Of a DNA stretch of 64,000 nt, positions 34,402-40,062 are shown piece by piece. Position numbers and translations under genes: made by a program. The notes beneath the pieces were generated by a model that did not search any database, was not told where the DNA came from, and saw only the letters and a list, made by a program, of their open reading frames with translations. This stretch comes from Thermostichus lividus PCC 6715. Its GTDB lineage: Bacteria > Cyanobacteriota > Cyanobacteriia > Thermosynechococcales > Thermosynechococcaceae. Numbering within the stretch: the first letter of the stretch is position 1; the number at the start of each line of letters is the position of its first letter. The stretch lies in contig NZ_CP018092.1 in the NCBI RefSeq assembly GCF_002754935.1, positions 1 to 64,000 of the forward strand. The letters run 5' to 3'.

Positions 34402-34821
34402 GTGGCTCCAATCAAACCCCATAAACTGGATCTGGATGCGAGTTACCCCTGTCCCTGCCGCCGTCAAGGGGAATTGATGCCCATTGCCCTCACCGATGCC
34501 TTTGGCTGTCGCCGTTGCCAGCAAATTTTTGTTGTCCGCCCCGATGGGTTTTCCATAGAGCAGTTGGCCACCACCTACCCCTACAAGCGCGCTTGGTATT
34601 GGACAGGGCTACAGTGGAGTGTTTTGCAGCGTGGTTTTTCGGAAAACTACTGGTATTTCGCCATTGGCCTGAGCTTCTTCTTACTCATGCCTATCCTTTT
34701 GTGGTTGCCTTTGCTTCTACAATTATCCTTAAAACCGGAAGGGCTGCTATGGATTATTGCTTCCCTGCTGTTAGCACTCACCCCTGCCTTTTTGGTCTGG
34801 GTCGCTCTATCGCGCCGCTAG
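34402..34821 (+). CDS. Zinc-ribbon-like two-helix membrane protein
   Basis: A 139-residue protein starting at GTG 34402. The N-terminal half has cysteines as YPCPCRRQG and GCRRCQQIF, a four-cysteine ribbon separated by about 17 residues that probably binds zinc. Two transmembrane helices follow (YFAIGLSFFLLMPILLWLPL and LLWIIASLLLALTPAFLVWV). The family is not recognised by name, but the layout is seen in cyanobacterial hypotheticals. It ends 13 bases before the ProA-like gene, so the two are probably co-transcribed. Confidence 0.7.
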   Translation: MAPIKPHKLDLDASYPCPCRRQGELMPIALTDAFGCRRCQQIFVVRPDGFSIEQLATTYPYKRAWYWTGLQWSVLQRGFSENYWYFAIGLSFFLLMPILLWLPLLLQLSLKPEGLLWIIASLLLALTPAFLVWVALSRR

Positions 34822-34834
34822 GTAGCGTCTCCTA

Positions 34835-36019
34835 ATGCTATCGGAGTTGTTAGAGGCTGCGCGTTTTGCCAGTACTCAGCTTGCCCAAGCCTCCTACAGC
34901 AGTCGTCAGGAGGCATTGCTGGCTCTAATTAATGCCTTAAAGACGGCTGAGCCGCTATTGCTGGAGCAAAATACCCTCGACCTAGAATCGAGTCGAGACT
35001 TAGCGGTGTCTGGTATTGTTTTGGGCTGGCTACGGCTAACCCATGAGCGTTTACAACGGATTACCCGCTGGTTAGAGCAGCTCTACCAAGCCCCAGATCC
35101 GTGGGTACAGGCATTGCCCACCGGCAGAAACACCTTTCGCTATGCGGTTCCCTTGGGGGTGATCGGTTTAATCTATGAGGGGTTACCCACCTTAAGTTTG
35201 CTCATGGCAGGCTTGGCACTCAAAACGGGTAATGCTTTAGTGATATGGGGGGGAGCCAGTAGTCGGTTTACCGCTCAGGCGATCGCCAATGTTCTGCAGG
35301 ATGCCCTCAGCCGCACCTCCCTACCCCTAAGTAGCCTGCAAACCTTACCTTTTGAACTACCCCCTGCCAGTTGGCTATCCCAGCCCAAGGCAGTGGATGT
35401 GGCGATCGCCCACGGGCGTTCTCGCTTTCTTGCAGAGCACCGCAGTGCCACTTGCTGTCCGTTTGTTCCCCTTGCCCTAGGCAATAGTTATCTGGTGTGG
35501 GATGGTTCAGTTTCGCCCGAGGTCATTCTTAGCTGTATTCAGCAAAGCCATGATGGCTCTCCCGATCGCCCCCTCGCCATTGAAAAGATCATTGTGCTTG
35601 CAGGGGTCAATCCTTCGCATCTCACCTTTGTGATGAATGAACTCGCCCAAGCGGGGTACAAGTCAGCGGTTGACGAGTATCTGCGGGCAACCTATCCCGA
35701 ATTACCTATGGTGGATGCAACGGAGTGGAGCCTTCCTTACCTGAACCAACGGTTGGCTTGGCACTACGAAGAGGATTTAGGCAAAGCGATCGCTTGGATT
35801 AACCGCTACGGTACCACCGCCAGTGTCATTGCGACCACCAATTACCAAGACTGCTGTCAGTTTTATCAGCAGGTGCACACCCCCCTTGTCTATCTCAATC
35901 GATCCCCACAGTTAGAACGGCTGAGCGCCTTGGCGATCGGGGTTGTGGCCGAACGGGGTGCCTACCAAGGGGTTATGGGGATTGAGCAGTGGCTGAGCAC
36001 GAAGCAAATCTGGCTTTAG
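34835..36019 (+). CDS. ProA-like protein (glutamate-5-semialdehyde dehydrogenase family) lacking the catalytic cysteine
   Basis: A 394-residue member of the gamma-glutamyl phosphate reductase family. Family features include RFASTQLAQASYSSRQEAL, a conserved core (YAVPLGVIGLIYEGLPTLSL, MAGLALKTGNALVIWGGASS) and a C-terminal TPLVYLNRSPQLE-x-GVVAERG segment. At the position of the catalytic cysteine (normally in a CNALE motif) it reads PLAIEKIIV, with proline 246 in place of cysteine, and the usual RGG loop before it is also degraded. It is therefore likely inactive as a dehydrogenase or does something else; a canonical proA may exist elsewhere. No frameshift explains the difference. It converges with the DUF4335 gene, overlapping by four bases. 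Confidence 0.8.
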   Translation: MLSELLEAARFASTQLAQASYSSRQEALLALINALKTAEPLLLEQNTLDLESSRDLAVSGIVLGWLRLTHERLQRITRWLEQLYQAPDPWVQALPTGRNTFRYAVPLGVIGLIYEGLPTLSLLMAGLALKTGNALVIWGGASSRFTAQAIANVLQDALSRTSLPLSSLQTLPFELPPASWLSQPKAVDVAIAHGRSRFLAEHRSATCCPFVPLALGNSYLVWDGSVSPEVILSCIQQSHDGSPDRPLAIEKIIVLAGVNPSHLTFVMNELAQAGYKSAVDEYLRATYPELPMVDATEWSLPYLNQRLAWHYEEDLGKAIAWINRYGTTASVIATTNYQDCCQFYQQVHTPLVYLNRSPQLERLSALAIGVVAERGAYQGVMGIEQWLSTKQIWL

Positions 36020-36671
36020 TTGCCTGCTGGGGTTGGCGGATTGGCCTCTGGCAGTAAGGGGCTGGGAGCAGTAGTTGGCGGCGGTTGGTTGAGTTCTGGG
36101 TCTTCGGGGCGGCGTTGGGGAACTGGCATATGGAAGAACAGGGCGGCCATCACGGCTAGGCTGGCAGCGCCAATCCCCAAGGGAGTCAGTTGTTGCCGTA
36201 GGGGCACCGCAGGGGCGATCGCCCGGCGTGGCAACGAGGAAAAGGTAGGGGTAAGAGTGGGCAAGGTTTGACTATCACTACAGAACTGGTCAAGGGCTTC
36301 TACAAGATCCGCCAGTTGCAACCAAGTGAGGCAGATCTCCACCATCCGTGCCGATGTTCCCTCCGGCAGCAGCAACAGATCCACCGGAATCCGCAGCCAC
36401 ACCTGATTAAAGGACTGTGTGTCCACTTGAATAGCCTGCTGGGGCGATCGCCGCAGCTTAACCCCACTAAGCCACGTCTGGGCTGCGGCAGGCACACTGT
36501 TCAGTAACGCAACCAAGAAATCTTTTCCCCCTTGAGGGGAGCAGGTTGCCCCACAATCTCGCACTCACACACCGTCACCACATCTAATTGTCCAGCCCCA
36601 TGACCTTGGCTGCTCAGCCCCTCAATGCGTAGCGTACAGTTGGGCAGACTATACTGACGTTGCAACAGCAT
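36016..36671 (-). pseudogene. DUF4335 family protein, frameshifted
   Basis: The frame starting at ATG 36671 reads MLLQRQYSLPNCTLRIEGLS, the signature DUF4335 start, and continues to PAPLKG. At a G5 run (36527-36531 as C on the plus strand) the frame goes wrong, while another frame continues GGKDFLVALLNSV, then LADLVEALDQFCSDSQTLP and a C-terminal transmembrane helix (LGIGAASLAVMAALFF) with a proline-rich tail. One additional G restores a 218-residue protein. The DUF3038 gene immediately upstream shares the pairing typical of cyanobacteria, where both are conserved and of unknown function. Confidence 0.82.
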
Positions 36672-37298
36672 TTAACTCACTTCCCCATCAAATAAACTAA
36701 ACCATAGCCGCTCCATCCCCTTCGTTCCAGCGCACAACAATAACTGCACCAATAATTGCAGCGCCAATTCATTCAGGGCAGAGTTGTCTTTGTAAAGAAA
36801 CAGCCCTGAGCGTTGAAGATTCATCCGTTTACGAAAATGCCGTCGAAACCGATCCAGATACTCCGCCAGCGGCGCATAGGTCTCTGGTGGGAGGTTTTGA
36901 GCGTGGAGTTGATCCAGCACCAACAACAAATGACGTAGTGTGGCCGTATGCCGTCGAGCCACCTGTACCACAATGGCGGTCAGTGCTTTGGTTTCGCTCA
37001 ACGGTAAAGGGGTTCGCTGAGTCACTTGACGAAAGGGGTTTGTGCAGCGAATTTGCCAGAAGATCACACGATTGGGAATCATGACCTGCAGTTGTAGGTC
37101 TCGCACCACCTGCAGCATTAATTCCGATGCATTCAAATCCACCGACTCTAGGGCTAACAGCAACAGATCCAGTTGCCAGCGGGCACGCCGGGGACACACA
37201 CTAATTCCGGGAGGATCCGGCAGCACCGCCAACATTGGTGGCAGTAACTCGGCGGGTGTCGATTCAATTGTTGCTGGCATCGAGTTTGCCGTTTCCAT
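36672..37298 (-). CDS. DUF3038 domain-containing protein
   Basis: A protein of about 208 residues with LLPPMLAVLPDPPG near the start, the core RRARWQLDLLLLALESVDLN and IPNRVIFWQIRCTNPFRQ, then a helical C-terminal half. This is the DUF3038 family as I recognise it, nearly always next to DUF4335. Its stop abuts the DUF4335 start without a gap, so the two are translated together and may form a complex (inference). METANSMPATIE at 37298 fits family starts better than the open-frame ATG at 37343. Confidence 0.8.
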   Translation of the reverse strand: METANSMPATIESTPAELLPPMLAVLPDPPGISVCPRRARWQLDLLLLALESVDLNASELMLQVVRDLQLQVMIPNRVIFWQIRCTNPFRQVTQRTPLPLSETKALTAIVVQVARRHTATLRHLLLVLDQLHAQNLPPETYAPLAEYLDRFRRHFRKRMNLQRSGLFLYKDNSALNELALQLLVQLLLCAGTKGMERLWFSLFDGEVS

Positions 37299-37479
37299 AA
37301 ATCTAAAATGCCCACTATACAGCCCAAAGGTAACATTGGCCATAACCTAGACGATAATACCCTAAGGATTGCCCTAGGCCACAGCACCCATGACGATTGT
37401 TCCTTATCTCTATGTTGCGCAACCTCAGGGCTGTTGGGAAAGCAAGCTAGACTTGAGGAGTGTCTTGGGAGTCAGCTTG

Positions 37480-38505: not shown

Positions 38506-40062
38506 ATGTCTGCCACCCTGCCTGCCTTTGTTGAACAGCTACTCACCGCTGCAGCGTATCCCCATCCGGTCGCTGCGCCGATTCAACTCCTGCAAACCCA
38601 TATTTCCTACGTTTTTTTGACCGGAGACTACGCCTACAAGGTGAAAAAGCCGGTGGACTTTGGGTTCTTGAACTTTACAACCCTCGATAAGCGCCGGTTT
38701 TATTGTCAAGAAGAACTACGCCTGAATCGCCGTCTTGCCCCTCAGCTTTACCTTGAGGTGGTGCCGATCCTGCAGCGGGGCGATCGCTACTATATTGGCA
38801 TTGGCGCTAACGAGGCGATCGCTGCTGACACCCCCATTGTAGACTACGCCATTCGCATGCGGCAGTTTGACCAGTCACAACTATTTTCACACCTGTTCGC
38901 TGCCAATGAACTCAGCCCATCCCTCATCGAGTCCCTTGGTAAAGAACTGGCATACTTCCACACCACTGCTACCACAACCCCTGAGATCACCAGTTTCGGT
39001 TCCCCCAGTGCCATTGCCCAAGTGATCAATAACTGCCATACCCTTGCTGAGCAGTTTATTGACCGCTGTCAACCGCGCAGCCAGTACGATGCCATCCAAG
39101 CCTTTACAAATCAATTTCTGGCCACGCATCAAGACTGGTTTGTTGAGCGCCAAGCGGCGGGCAAAATTCGTGAATGCCATGGCGATCTGCATTTGAACAA
39201 TATCTGTGTTTACAACGGTCAGGTGCAGATTTTTGACTGCATTGAGTTTAACCAAGAGTTTCGCAATATCGATGGCATTTACGATGTGGCGTTCTTGATG
39301 ATGGATTTGGAGTTTCGTGGCCGCTCAGACTTGGCGAATTTATTTTTGAATACCTATCTGGAATGGAGTAGTGACTACGAAGGGGCTAGGCTCTTGCCGC
39401 TGTACCTGTGTGTGCGTGCCTATATTCGCGGCAATGTGAATTCCCTTGCCCTCAATGATCCCGCCATTAGCGACTCTGAGAAAGCCCAGATTCAGGCCAC
39501 TGCGGCTGCGTACTACGAGGCGGCCTACCACTACACCCAACCCCGTACCCCTAAGCTCTATGTCATGTCTGGCCTTTCGGGTGCAGGGAAAAGCACTCGG
39601 GGGCGGCGCTTGGCGCAACAGGAAAACGCCATTCAAATTCGCTCTGATGCAGTGCGCAAGCACTTGGCGGGGATCCCCCTCGACCGCCACAGTCGTGATT
39701 TCCCCGATGTAGATCTCTACTCTCAGGCCATGACCCAGAAAACCTACGATCAACTGCTGGCCTACGCAGAACTACTGCTTAAGCAGGGGCATACCGTGAT
39801 TTTAGATGCCAAGTACGATCGCTGTGATCTGCGCCGCCCGGTGATTGAGTTGGCGGAACGTCTTGGGGTGCCCCTAGAAATTCACTACTGTAGTGCGCCA
39901 CCGCAGGTGCTCTCCCAGCGCCTTAGCGATCGCCAAGGGGATATTGCCGAAGCCACCCCTGACCTCCTTCCTACGCAAATGGCCTCGTTTGAACCCTTTG
40001 AAGGTGCTGAAGAGCGTTACGTCCGCCATGTGTGTGAGTATCCTGAGGAGACTCTGGTTTAG
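38506..40062 (+). CDS. Fusion of aminoglycoside-phosphotransferase-like kinase and P-loop ATPase
   Basis: A 518-residue two-domain protein. Residues 20-330 are APH/choline-kinase-like: YAYKVKKPVDFGFLNFTTLD (ATP-binding lysine), catalytic loop CHGDLHLNNICV and the DFG-like FDCIEFNQEFRNID. From about residue 345 a zeta-toxin/gluconokinase-like P-loop kinase follows with Walker A MSGLSGAGKSTRGRRLA and IRSDAVRKHLAG. This fusion is a known cyanobacterial and proteobacterial architecture annotated as bifunctional aminoglycoside phosphotransferase/ATP-binding protein; the true substrate is not an antibiotic as far as known. There is no sign of mobile context. Confidence 0.88.
   Translation: MSATLPAFVEQLLTAAAYPHPVAAPIQLLQTHISYVFLTGDYAYKVKKPVDFGFLNFTTLDKRRFYCQEELRLNRRLAPQLYLEVVPILQRGDRYYIGIGANEAIAADTPIVDYAIRMRQFDQSQLFSHLFAANELSPSLIESLGKELAYFHTTATTTPEITSFGSPSAIAQVINNCHTLAEQFIDRCQPRSQYDAIQAFTNQFLATHQDWFVERQAAGKIRECHGDLHLNNICVYNGQVQIFDCIEFNQEFRNIDGIYDVAFLMMDLEFRGRSDLANLFLNTYLEWSSDYEGARLLPLYLCVRAYIRGNVNSLALNDPAISDSEKAQIQATAAAYYEAAYHYTQPRTPKLYVMSGLSGAGKSTRGRRLAQQENAIQIRSDAVRKHLAGIPLDRHSRDFPDVDLYSQAMTQKTYDQLLAYAELLLKQGHTVILDAKYDRCDLRRPVIELAERLGVPLEIHYCSAPPQVLSQRLSDRQGDIAEATPDLLPTQMASFEPFEGAEERYVRHVCEYPEETLV

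Follow-up and report, generated by a model that had tools for sequence, protein, structure and literature searches.

A widely conserved ProA homologue of cyanobacteria with a dismantled active site, and its zinc-ribbon neighbour gene

What is the role of a protein that matches gamma-glutamyl phosphate reductase (ProA) over almost its whole length, and has a proline in place of the catalytic cysteine? The gene for such a protein lies in the first 64,000 nucleotides of contig NZ_CP018092.1 of Thermostichus lividus PCC 6715, the stretch analysed here and called the window (Table 1). A first-pass annotation of these nucleotides had described a ProA paralogue free of frameshifts. This was borne out: the reading frame is open over 394 codons, and the ProA profile match spans residues 2–388, so that homology is near end-to-end. 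The scores were 166.6 bits for NF001221 (cut-off 289) and 144.6 bits for TIGR00407 (cut-off 317.45). By sequence, the best solved relatives in the PDB are the gamma-glutamyl phosphate reductases 8zok and 1o20. With a mean pLDDT of 64.1, and residues 174–216, 242–244 and 349–394 below 50, the structure model of the window protein could not be relied on; a Foldseek search with it returned ProAs as best matches, at TM-scores near 0.4. Since the best PDB matches by sequence and by fold are gamma-glutamyl phosphate reductases, the fold is probably kept.

Table 1. Positions in the window of the ProA-family gene, two of its active-site codons and the neighbouring gene
Feature	Position	Strand	Evidence
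ProA-family pseudoenzyme, 394 aa, homologue of gamma-glutamyl phosphate reductase / glutamate-5-semialdehyde dehydrogenase	34835..36019	+	ORF, NCBIfam and Pfam matches, PDB sequence matches, active-site columns
Pro246 codon, catalytic-Cys column (Cys253 of E. coli ProA)	35570..35572	+	alignment columns
Arg362 codon, column of E. coli Asp374 (Drosophila P5CS Asp715 by motif)	35918..35920	+	alignment columns
Zinc-ribbon protein, 139 aa, conserved neighbour gene	34402..34821	+	alignments, model, adjacency

At the active site the window protein reads SPDRPLAIEK, and the other ProA of the same genome reads PAACNAIET there; Pro246 does replace the catalytic cysteine, as had been proposed. Cysteine was absent from this column in 110 out of 110 relatives of an initial set. 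In the final comparison it was found in none of 127 members of the main clade and in none of five divergent members (families f5 and f29, in which the residue at this column is uncertain because the motif is unrecognisable), versus 94 of 94 other ProAs. These 94 consist of nine proteins from families f14, f30 and f33, 58 canonical cyanobacterial ProAs, 18 from other classes of the phylum, and nine from other bacteria and an archaeon. The set of 127 leaves out re-fetched loci and ten loci fetched via the neighbouring zinc-ribbon gene (L229–L238), and it includes five pairs with identical proteins, counted twice; with the ten loci taken in, the count is 0 of 137. In all 137 main-clade sequences no cysteine lies within three columns of the site, which speaks against the substitute active-site cysteine that the first-pass annotation had considered. 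The pseudoenzymes do have a conserved cysteine at position 225, but active ProAs share it, and it is a serine in the window protein (residue numbers of E. coli ProA are counted from locus L244 throughout).

The loop preceding the motif had been called degraded, and it is. The loss proved to be larger, as Arg122, Arg200, His226, Lys246 and Asp374 of the E. coli enzyme are gone too. Of 54 columns that are at least 95% invariant among the 94 Cys-bearing ProAs, 28 were kept (at least 90%) and 16 lost (below 10%) in the 127 main-clade proteins. A smaller, 121-row set gave 56 invariant columns, with again 28 kept and 16 lost; it derives from an alignment of 126 proteins, out of 246 collected by that stage, and among its 40 pseudoenzyme rows are two from zinc-ribbon-fetched loci. 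In this smaller set the lost columns, besides the five already named, were R65, R181, C253, E312, T370, G375, G381, A382, E383, T388 and P396. The residues lost are mainly Arg, Lys, His, Asp, Glu and Cys, and many of the invariant columns kept are Gly, Pro, Asn or hydrophobic positions.

The roles of some of these residues can be read from the homologous reductase domain of P5CS, which differs from the window protein in being fused to a kinase and in having a catalytic cysteine, Cys598; the window protein is unfused and lacks a cysteine at the site. Passages of two papers (PMC11061531, PMC8963878) assign these roles, and the former reports Arg712 and Asp715 of the Drosophila enzyme as substrate-binding, with Asp715 binding gamma-glutamyl phosphate. 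By the TRFxDG motif, these two correspond to Arg371 and Asp374 of E. coli ProA. Both are replaced in the window protein, by Gln359 and Arg362. Across the family, Arg371 was kept in 31 of the 40 pseudoenzyme rows, and the Asp374 column holds an arginine in 125 of the 127 main-clade members; Asp374 was kept in two of the five divergent ones. A spacing argument suggests that the lost Arg181 is probably the equivalent of P5CS Arg525, which is reported to contact the adenine of NADP(H).

The site has also gained residues. Comparison of the 40 pseudoenzyme rows with 81 rows of active ProAs revealed 17 residues that are newly fixed in the former and rare in the latter, such as Trp for Arg65 and Tyr for His226 (each 40/40). 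They sit in and around the old active-site motifs, and several replace motif residues, as would be expected of a new ligand site. Together with the probable retention of the ProA fold, this could mean that the protein is still an enzyme, an ALDH-fold protein with a remodelled cleft and a chemistry that needs no cysteine. We regard this as unlikely, given that the nucleophile, the substrate-binding aspartate and the probable adenine-contacting arginine are all lost, and that in the divergent group the motif region is eroded beyond recognition. Set against ProA as defined by TIGR00407 and NF001221 and by the structures 1o20 and 8zok, the family retains near full-length homology and just over half of the invariant columns, and departs from it by the loss of the cysteine and 15 other invariant positions, by fixed replacements and, for the window protein, by a score below cut-off. 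Because the defining cysteine, the substrate aspartate and the curated score are all missing, it is not a ProA in the functional sense.

A canonical proA was looked for elsewhere in the window's genome and was found at G000:C1:2143874-2144947 (−); the same genome also encodes a ProB. Two ProA matches were present in all 11 genomes of the genus that were searched; the Cys motif was read in each of the 11 canonical copies. The second copy was free of internal stops in 11 of 11 genomes and full length in ten. The remaining one (L012, G007:C1:2445062-2446132) lacks the last 35 residues, its open frame being of 370 aa, versus 394–428 aa in the other ten.

Beyond the genus, 388 genomes, sampled evenly across the class, were searched with the window protein. 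Matches at E ≤ 1e-5 were obtained in 386 of them, most of which matched twice. All 145 sampled genomes of family f32 encode a close relative (E of 2.1e-185 or better). The 64 genomes of family f2 have a single ProA match each, with canonical-like scores, and the three f2 loci that were read (L144, L146, L149) are all canonical ProA. A scan of the contigs of named genomes, both search patterns of which avoid the Cys motif, gave 512 relatives; the best 80 of these 512 were taken as loci and belong to many filamentous and some unicellular genera. A divergent sister group was met in families f5 and f29 (L184–L188), with the Cys motif eroded beyond recognition and the zinc-ribbon gene still upstream. 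Most sampled cyanobacteria carry a second ProA-like gene whose active site is dismantled and which is well conserved.

The first-pass annotation had noted that the gene adjoins that of a zinc-ribbon membrane protein. The neighbour is indeed there, ending 13 bp upstream on the same strand, but its presence is not incidental. A zinc-ribbon gene was found immediately upstream, on the same strand, at 76 of the 80 named loci (best 80 of 512), mostly with a gap of a few bases. With a profile built from these 76, it was directly upstream at 121 of 124 main-clade and five of five divergent loci, and at eight of nine loci of the Cys-bearing ProAs of families f14, f30 and f33, versus only one of 56 loci of canonical cyanobacterial ProA. 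These counts cover the class only and concern loci with at least 450 nt of upstream sequence, 32 loci with less being set aside (three main-clade, two canonical, 27 outgroup); zinc-ribbon-fetched loci are excluded, and with L229–L238 included the main-clade count is 130 of 133.

Alignments of the 139-aa neighbour indicate a zinc-ribbon arrangement of Cys17, Cys19, Cys36 and Cys39. Its model (mean pLDDT 81.5) has two long hydrophobic helices, residues 83–107 and 112–138, which, judged by eye, are probably membrane helices. The window's zinc-ribbon protein matched no Pfam or NCBIfam family, and a search of the PDB with its model, at E up to 0.001, was empty. The 388-genome sample contained a zinc-ribbon match in 315 genomes, with no f2 genome among the matches listed. 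Presence by itself is less telling than adjacency, since a second, weaker match was seen in seven of ten genomes examined; in the window's own genome such a match lies at G000:C1:2562997-2563278 (L263). A search outside the class (0 of 26) was run without a positive control, so that its empty result shows nothing.

Might the two genes have stayed neighbours by mere inertia, as a relic of an ancient gene order, without working together? Each persists alone in places: at L026, L192 and L196 the pseudoenzyme gene has no adjacent zinc-ribbon gene (G021, the genome of L192, has no zinc-ribbon match anywhere), and the f17 genomes and genus g99 have the zinc-ribbon gene and no pseudoenzyme, so that the pair is not obligatory. 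Besides, a ribH-like gene, as read by eye, is also a frequent neighbour (38 of the 80 named loci, best 80 of 512). Inertia nevertheless seems improbable to us in view of an adjacency of 121/124 versus 1/56, with the two genes usually a few bases apart and the outer neighbours varying, and of the absence of both genes from the f2 genomes by the searches run.

Two of the exceptions have an arrangement of their own. In one f17 genome (L134 in G057:C8; L227, 8102-9847), the gene directly downstream of the zinc-ribbon gene encodes a canonical, Cys-bearing ProA, which looks as though it had moved into the pseudoenzyme's former place. In two g99 genomes (L255, L256) its neighbours are a desaturase-like gene and one other gene, named by eye. 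Both of these flank the pair at many pseudoenzyme loci, the desaturase-like gene commonly so, and the g99 loci look as though a pseudoenzyme gene once lay between them and the zinc-ribbon gene and was lost.

Two trees bear on the origin of the family. The first (IQ-TREE, LG+C20, root not inferred) comprised 70 of the 126 aligned proteins. The main pseudoenzymes (support 100/100), the divergent ones of f5 and f29 (100/100), the Cys-bearing ProAs of f14, f30 and f33 (99/92) and the canonical cyanobacterial ProAs (100/99) each formed a group. The first three lie on the same side of a branch supported at 100/99, and the canonical cyanobacterial ProA sits among other bacterial and archaeal ProAs, its exact sister being weakly supported (88/42). 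Long branches lead to both pseudoenzyme groups and weaken their exact placing. The second tree (FastTree, 226 proteins) was built with the motif columns removed; in it, one branch (support 0.999) separated the 132 Cys-less proteins from all others, and another (0.988) did so for these together with the nine ProAs of f14, f30 and f33. The group labels had been set partly by profile score and motif; as the motif-free tree separates the 132 proteins, the family label is independent of the motif itself.

The first tree, with an AU test, rejected a duplication of the canonical cyanobacterial proA (p 4e-24). A single clade for all cyanobacterial ProAs was likewise rejected (AU test, p 4e-8). The canonical protein, mostly with the motif PAACNAIET, belongs to the same protein family as the pseudoenzyme, and differs from it in forming a separate group, in keeping the cysteine (58/58) and in rarely having the zinc-ribbon neighbour. 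The ProA of f14, f30 and f33, families which we take to be probably Gloeobacterales and probably early-branching, falls on the pseudoenzyme's side of a well supported branch and shares its upstream zinc-ribbon gene; it differs by its own Cys-bearing motif, PSVCN, and by being the sole ProA match in those genomes. From tree and neighbour, the pseudoenzyme is probably the ortholog of this ProA, and, by the AU test, not a degenerate copy of the local canonical one. The simplest history consistent with the tree and the shared neighbour would be that a native ProA already had the zinc-ribbon neighbour, that a foreign ProA was gained, and that catalysis by the native protein was lost once.

The loss of the cysteine, and the ortholog without its last 35 residues, are what one would also see in a decaying duplicate of canonical proA, a pseudogene in progress. 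The selection data point the other way. Over 36 pairs per gene, all from one set of nine genomes of the genus (the window's own genome and G008 being left out), median dN/dS was 0.087 for the pseudoenzyme and 0.075 for canonical ProA; with the former value the gene is not a pseudogene. Its near-complete integrity within the genus, the close relative in every sampled f32 genome and the rejected origin from canonical proA agree with this, so that dN/dS, distribution and AU test refute decay, to which we give hardly any credence. Catalytic loss combined with fixed new residues and purifying selection is the signature of a protein held under constraint for a new function. With catalytic and substrate-binding residues lost, purifying selection, conservation across the class and a canonical ProA present in the same genome, the pseudoenzyme proposed in the first-pass annotation is strongly supported, and on these sequence grounds the term applies to the family.

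A dismantled active site in a well conserved protein, whose gene almost always adjoins a zinc-ribbon gene, makes a new, non-enzymatic job likely. Our preferred reading, which we consider probable though well short of certain, is that this is a conserved cyanobacterial pseudoenzyme, derived from the lineage's own ProA and unable to reduce gamma-glutamyl phosphate, that works with the zinc-ribbon membrane protein encoded upstream. The native ProA would already have been paired with the zinc-ribbon gene before catalysis was lost. A second ProA, of separate origin, would then have taken over the catalytic step and freed the native one from it, and the latter would have been kept as a non-catalytic partner of the membrane protein. 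The two proteins may form a complex at the membrane, in which the ProA body would serve as a non-catalytic scaffold or sensor and the remodelled former cleft would bind another ligand or partner. A more specific version, that in the ancestor of most cyanobacteria a foreign ProA took over proline synthesis and the native one became a membrane-associated glutamate/proline sensor or scaffold, kept across most of the class, is put forward tentatively, and we would not yet bet on it. With lower confidence, the glutamate-to-proline node (ProB or the catalytic ProA) is the most likely target, being the first candidate by descent.

Could the protein instead be a direct regulator of glutamate 5-kinase or of the catalytic ProA, one that replaces ProA in a ProB–ProA assembly and has no need for the membrane protein? 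ProB was present in 12 of the 12 genomes checked, some with the pseudoenzyme and some without, and P5CS, a fusion of the kinase with the reductase, assembles into filaments, according to passages of PMC8963878. However, the conserved pairing of the genes implicates the membrane protein, and the 64 f2 genomes, with one canonical-like ProA match each, have no zinc-ribbon match. Moreover, three genomes (G146, G073 and G540, the last judged by score alone) encode the pseudoenzyme and ProB, with no second, Cys-bearing ProA match; the pseudoenzyme may thus not need a catalytic ProA. G146 and G540 are of one contig each. Proline in these three might be made from ornithine, or a ProA gene might lie in a masked stretch. 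On balance we find direct regulation rather doubtful, and retain the reading of a pseudoenzyme that works with the zinc-ribbon membrane protein.

Cyanobacteria with two "proA" genes have been treated as having two working copies. In a Synechocystis study, transcripts of both sll0461 and sll0373 were taken as glutamate-to-proline capacity, as its passages indicate (PMC12386471). Disruption of sll0461 was reported to raise PHB, according to passages of papers citing that work (PMC3766872, PMC3859321); these reports may or may not concern the pseudoenzyme family. A 2024 survey of ProA and ProB tabulated one ProA per species for 27 cyanobacteria, so that its table does not record the two-ProA pair (PMC11061531). 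Among the literature matches listed (titles, abstract openings and passages, mostly outside the subscription literature), none described the second cyanobacterial ProA as a pseudoenzyme. Should one gene of every such pair prove non-catalytic, metabolic models and engineering that assume two working copies are wrong, and an uncharacterised membrane module, common to most sampled cyanobacteria, can be tested directly in laboratory strains. The family would, moreover, document well how a native enzyme can lose catalysis in the presence of a catalytic homologue of separate origin and yet keep its gene partner; and if the native ProA did become a sensor or scaffold, its likeness to the ordinary enzyme would have hidden it.

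Promoter and terminator scans of the locus gave no signal exceeding that of shuffled sequences. Downstream, on the opposite strand, genes for DUF4335 and DUF3038 proteins, of unassigned function, occupy positions 36016-37343 (−); the first of them is convergent with the pseudoenzyme gene, and their ends overlap by 4 bases. Further on, positions 38506-40062 (+) encode a single protein that matches APH-like phosphotransferases and, in its C-terminal part, a P-loop domain (AAA_33, Zeta_toxin).
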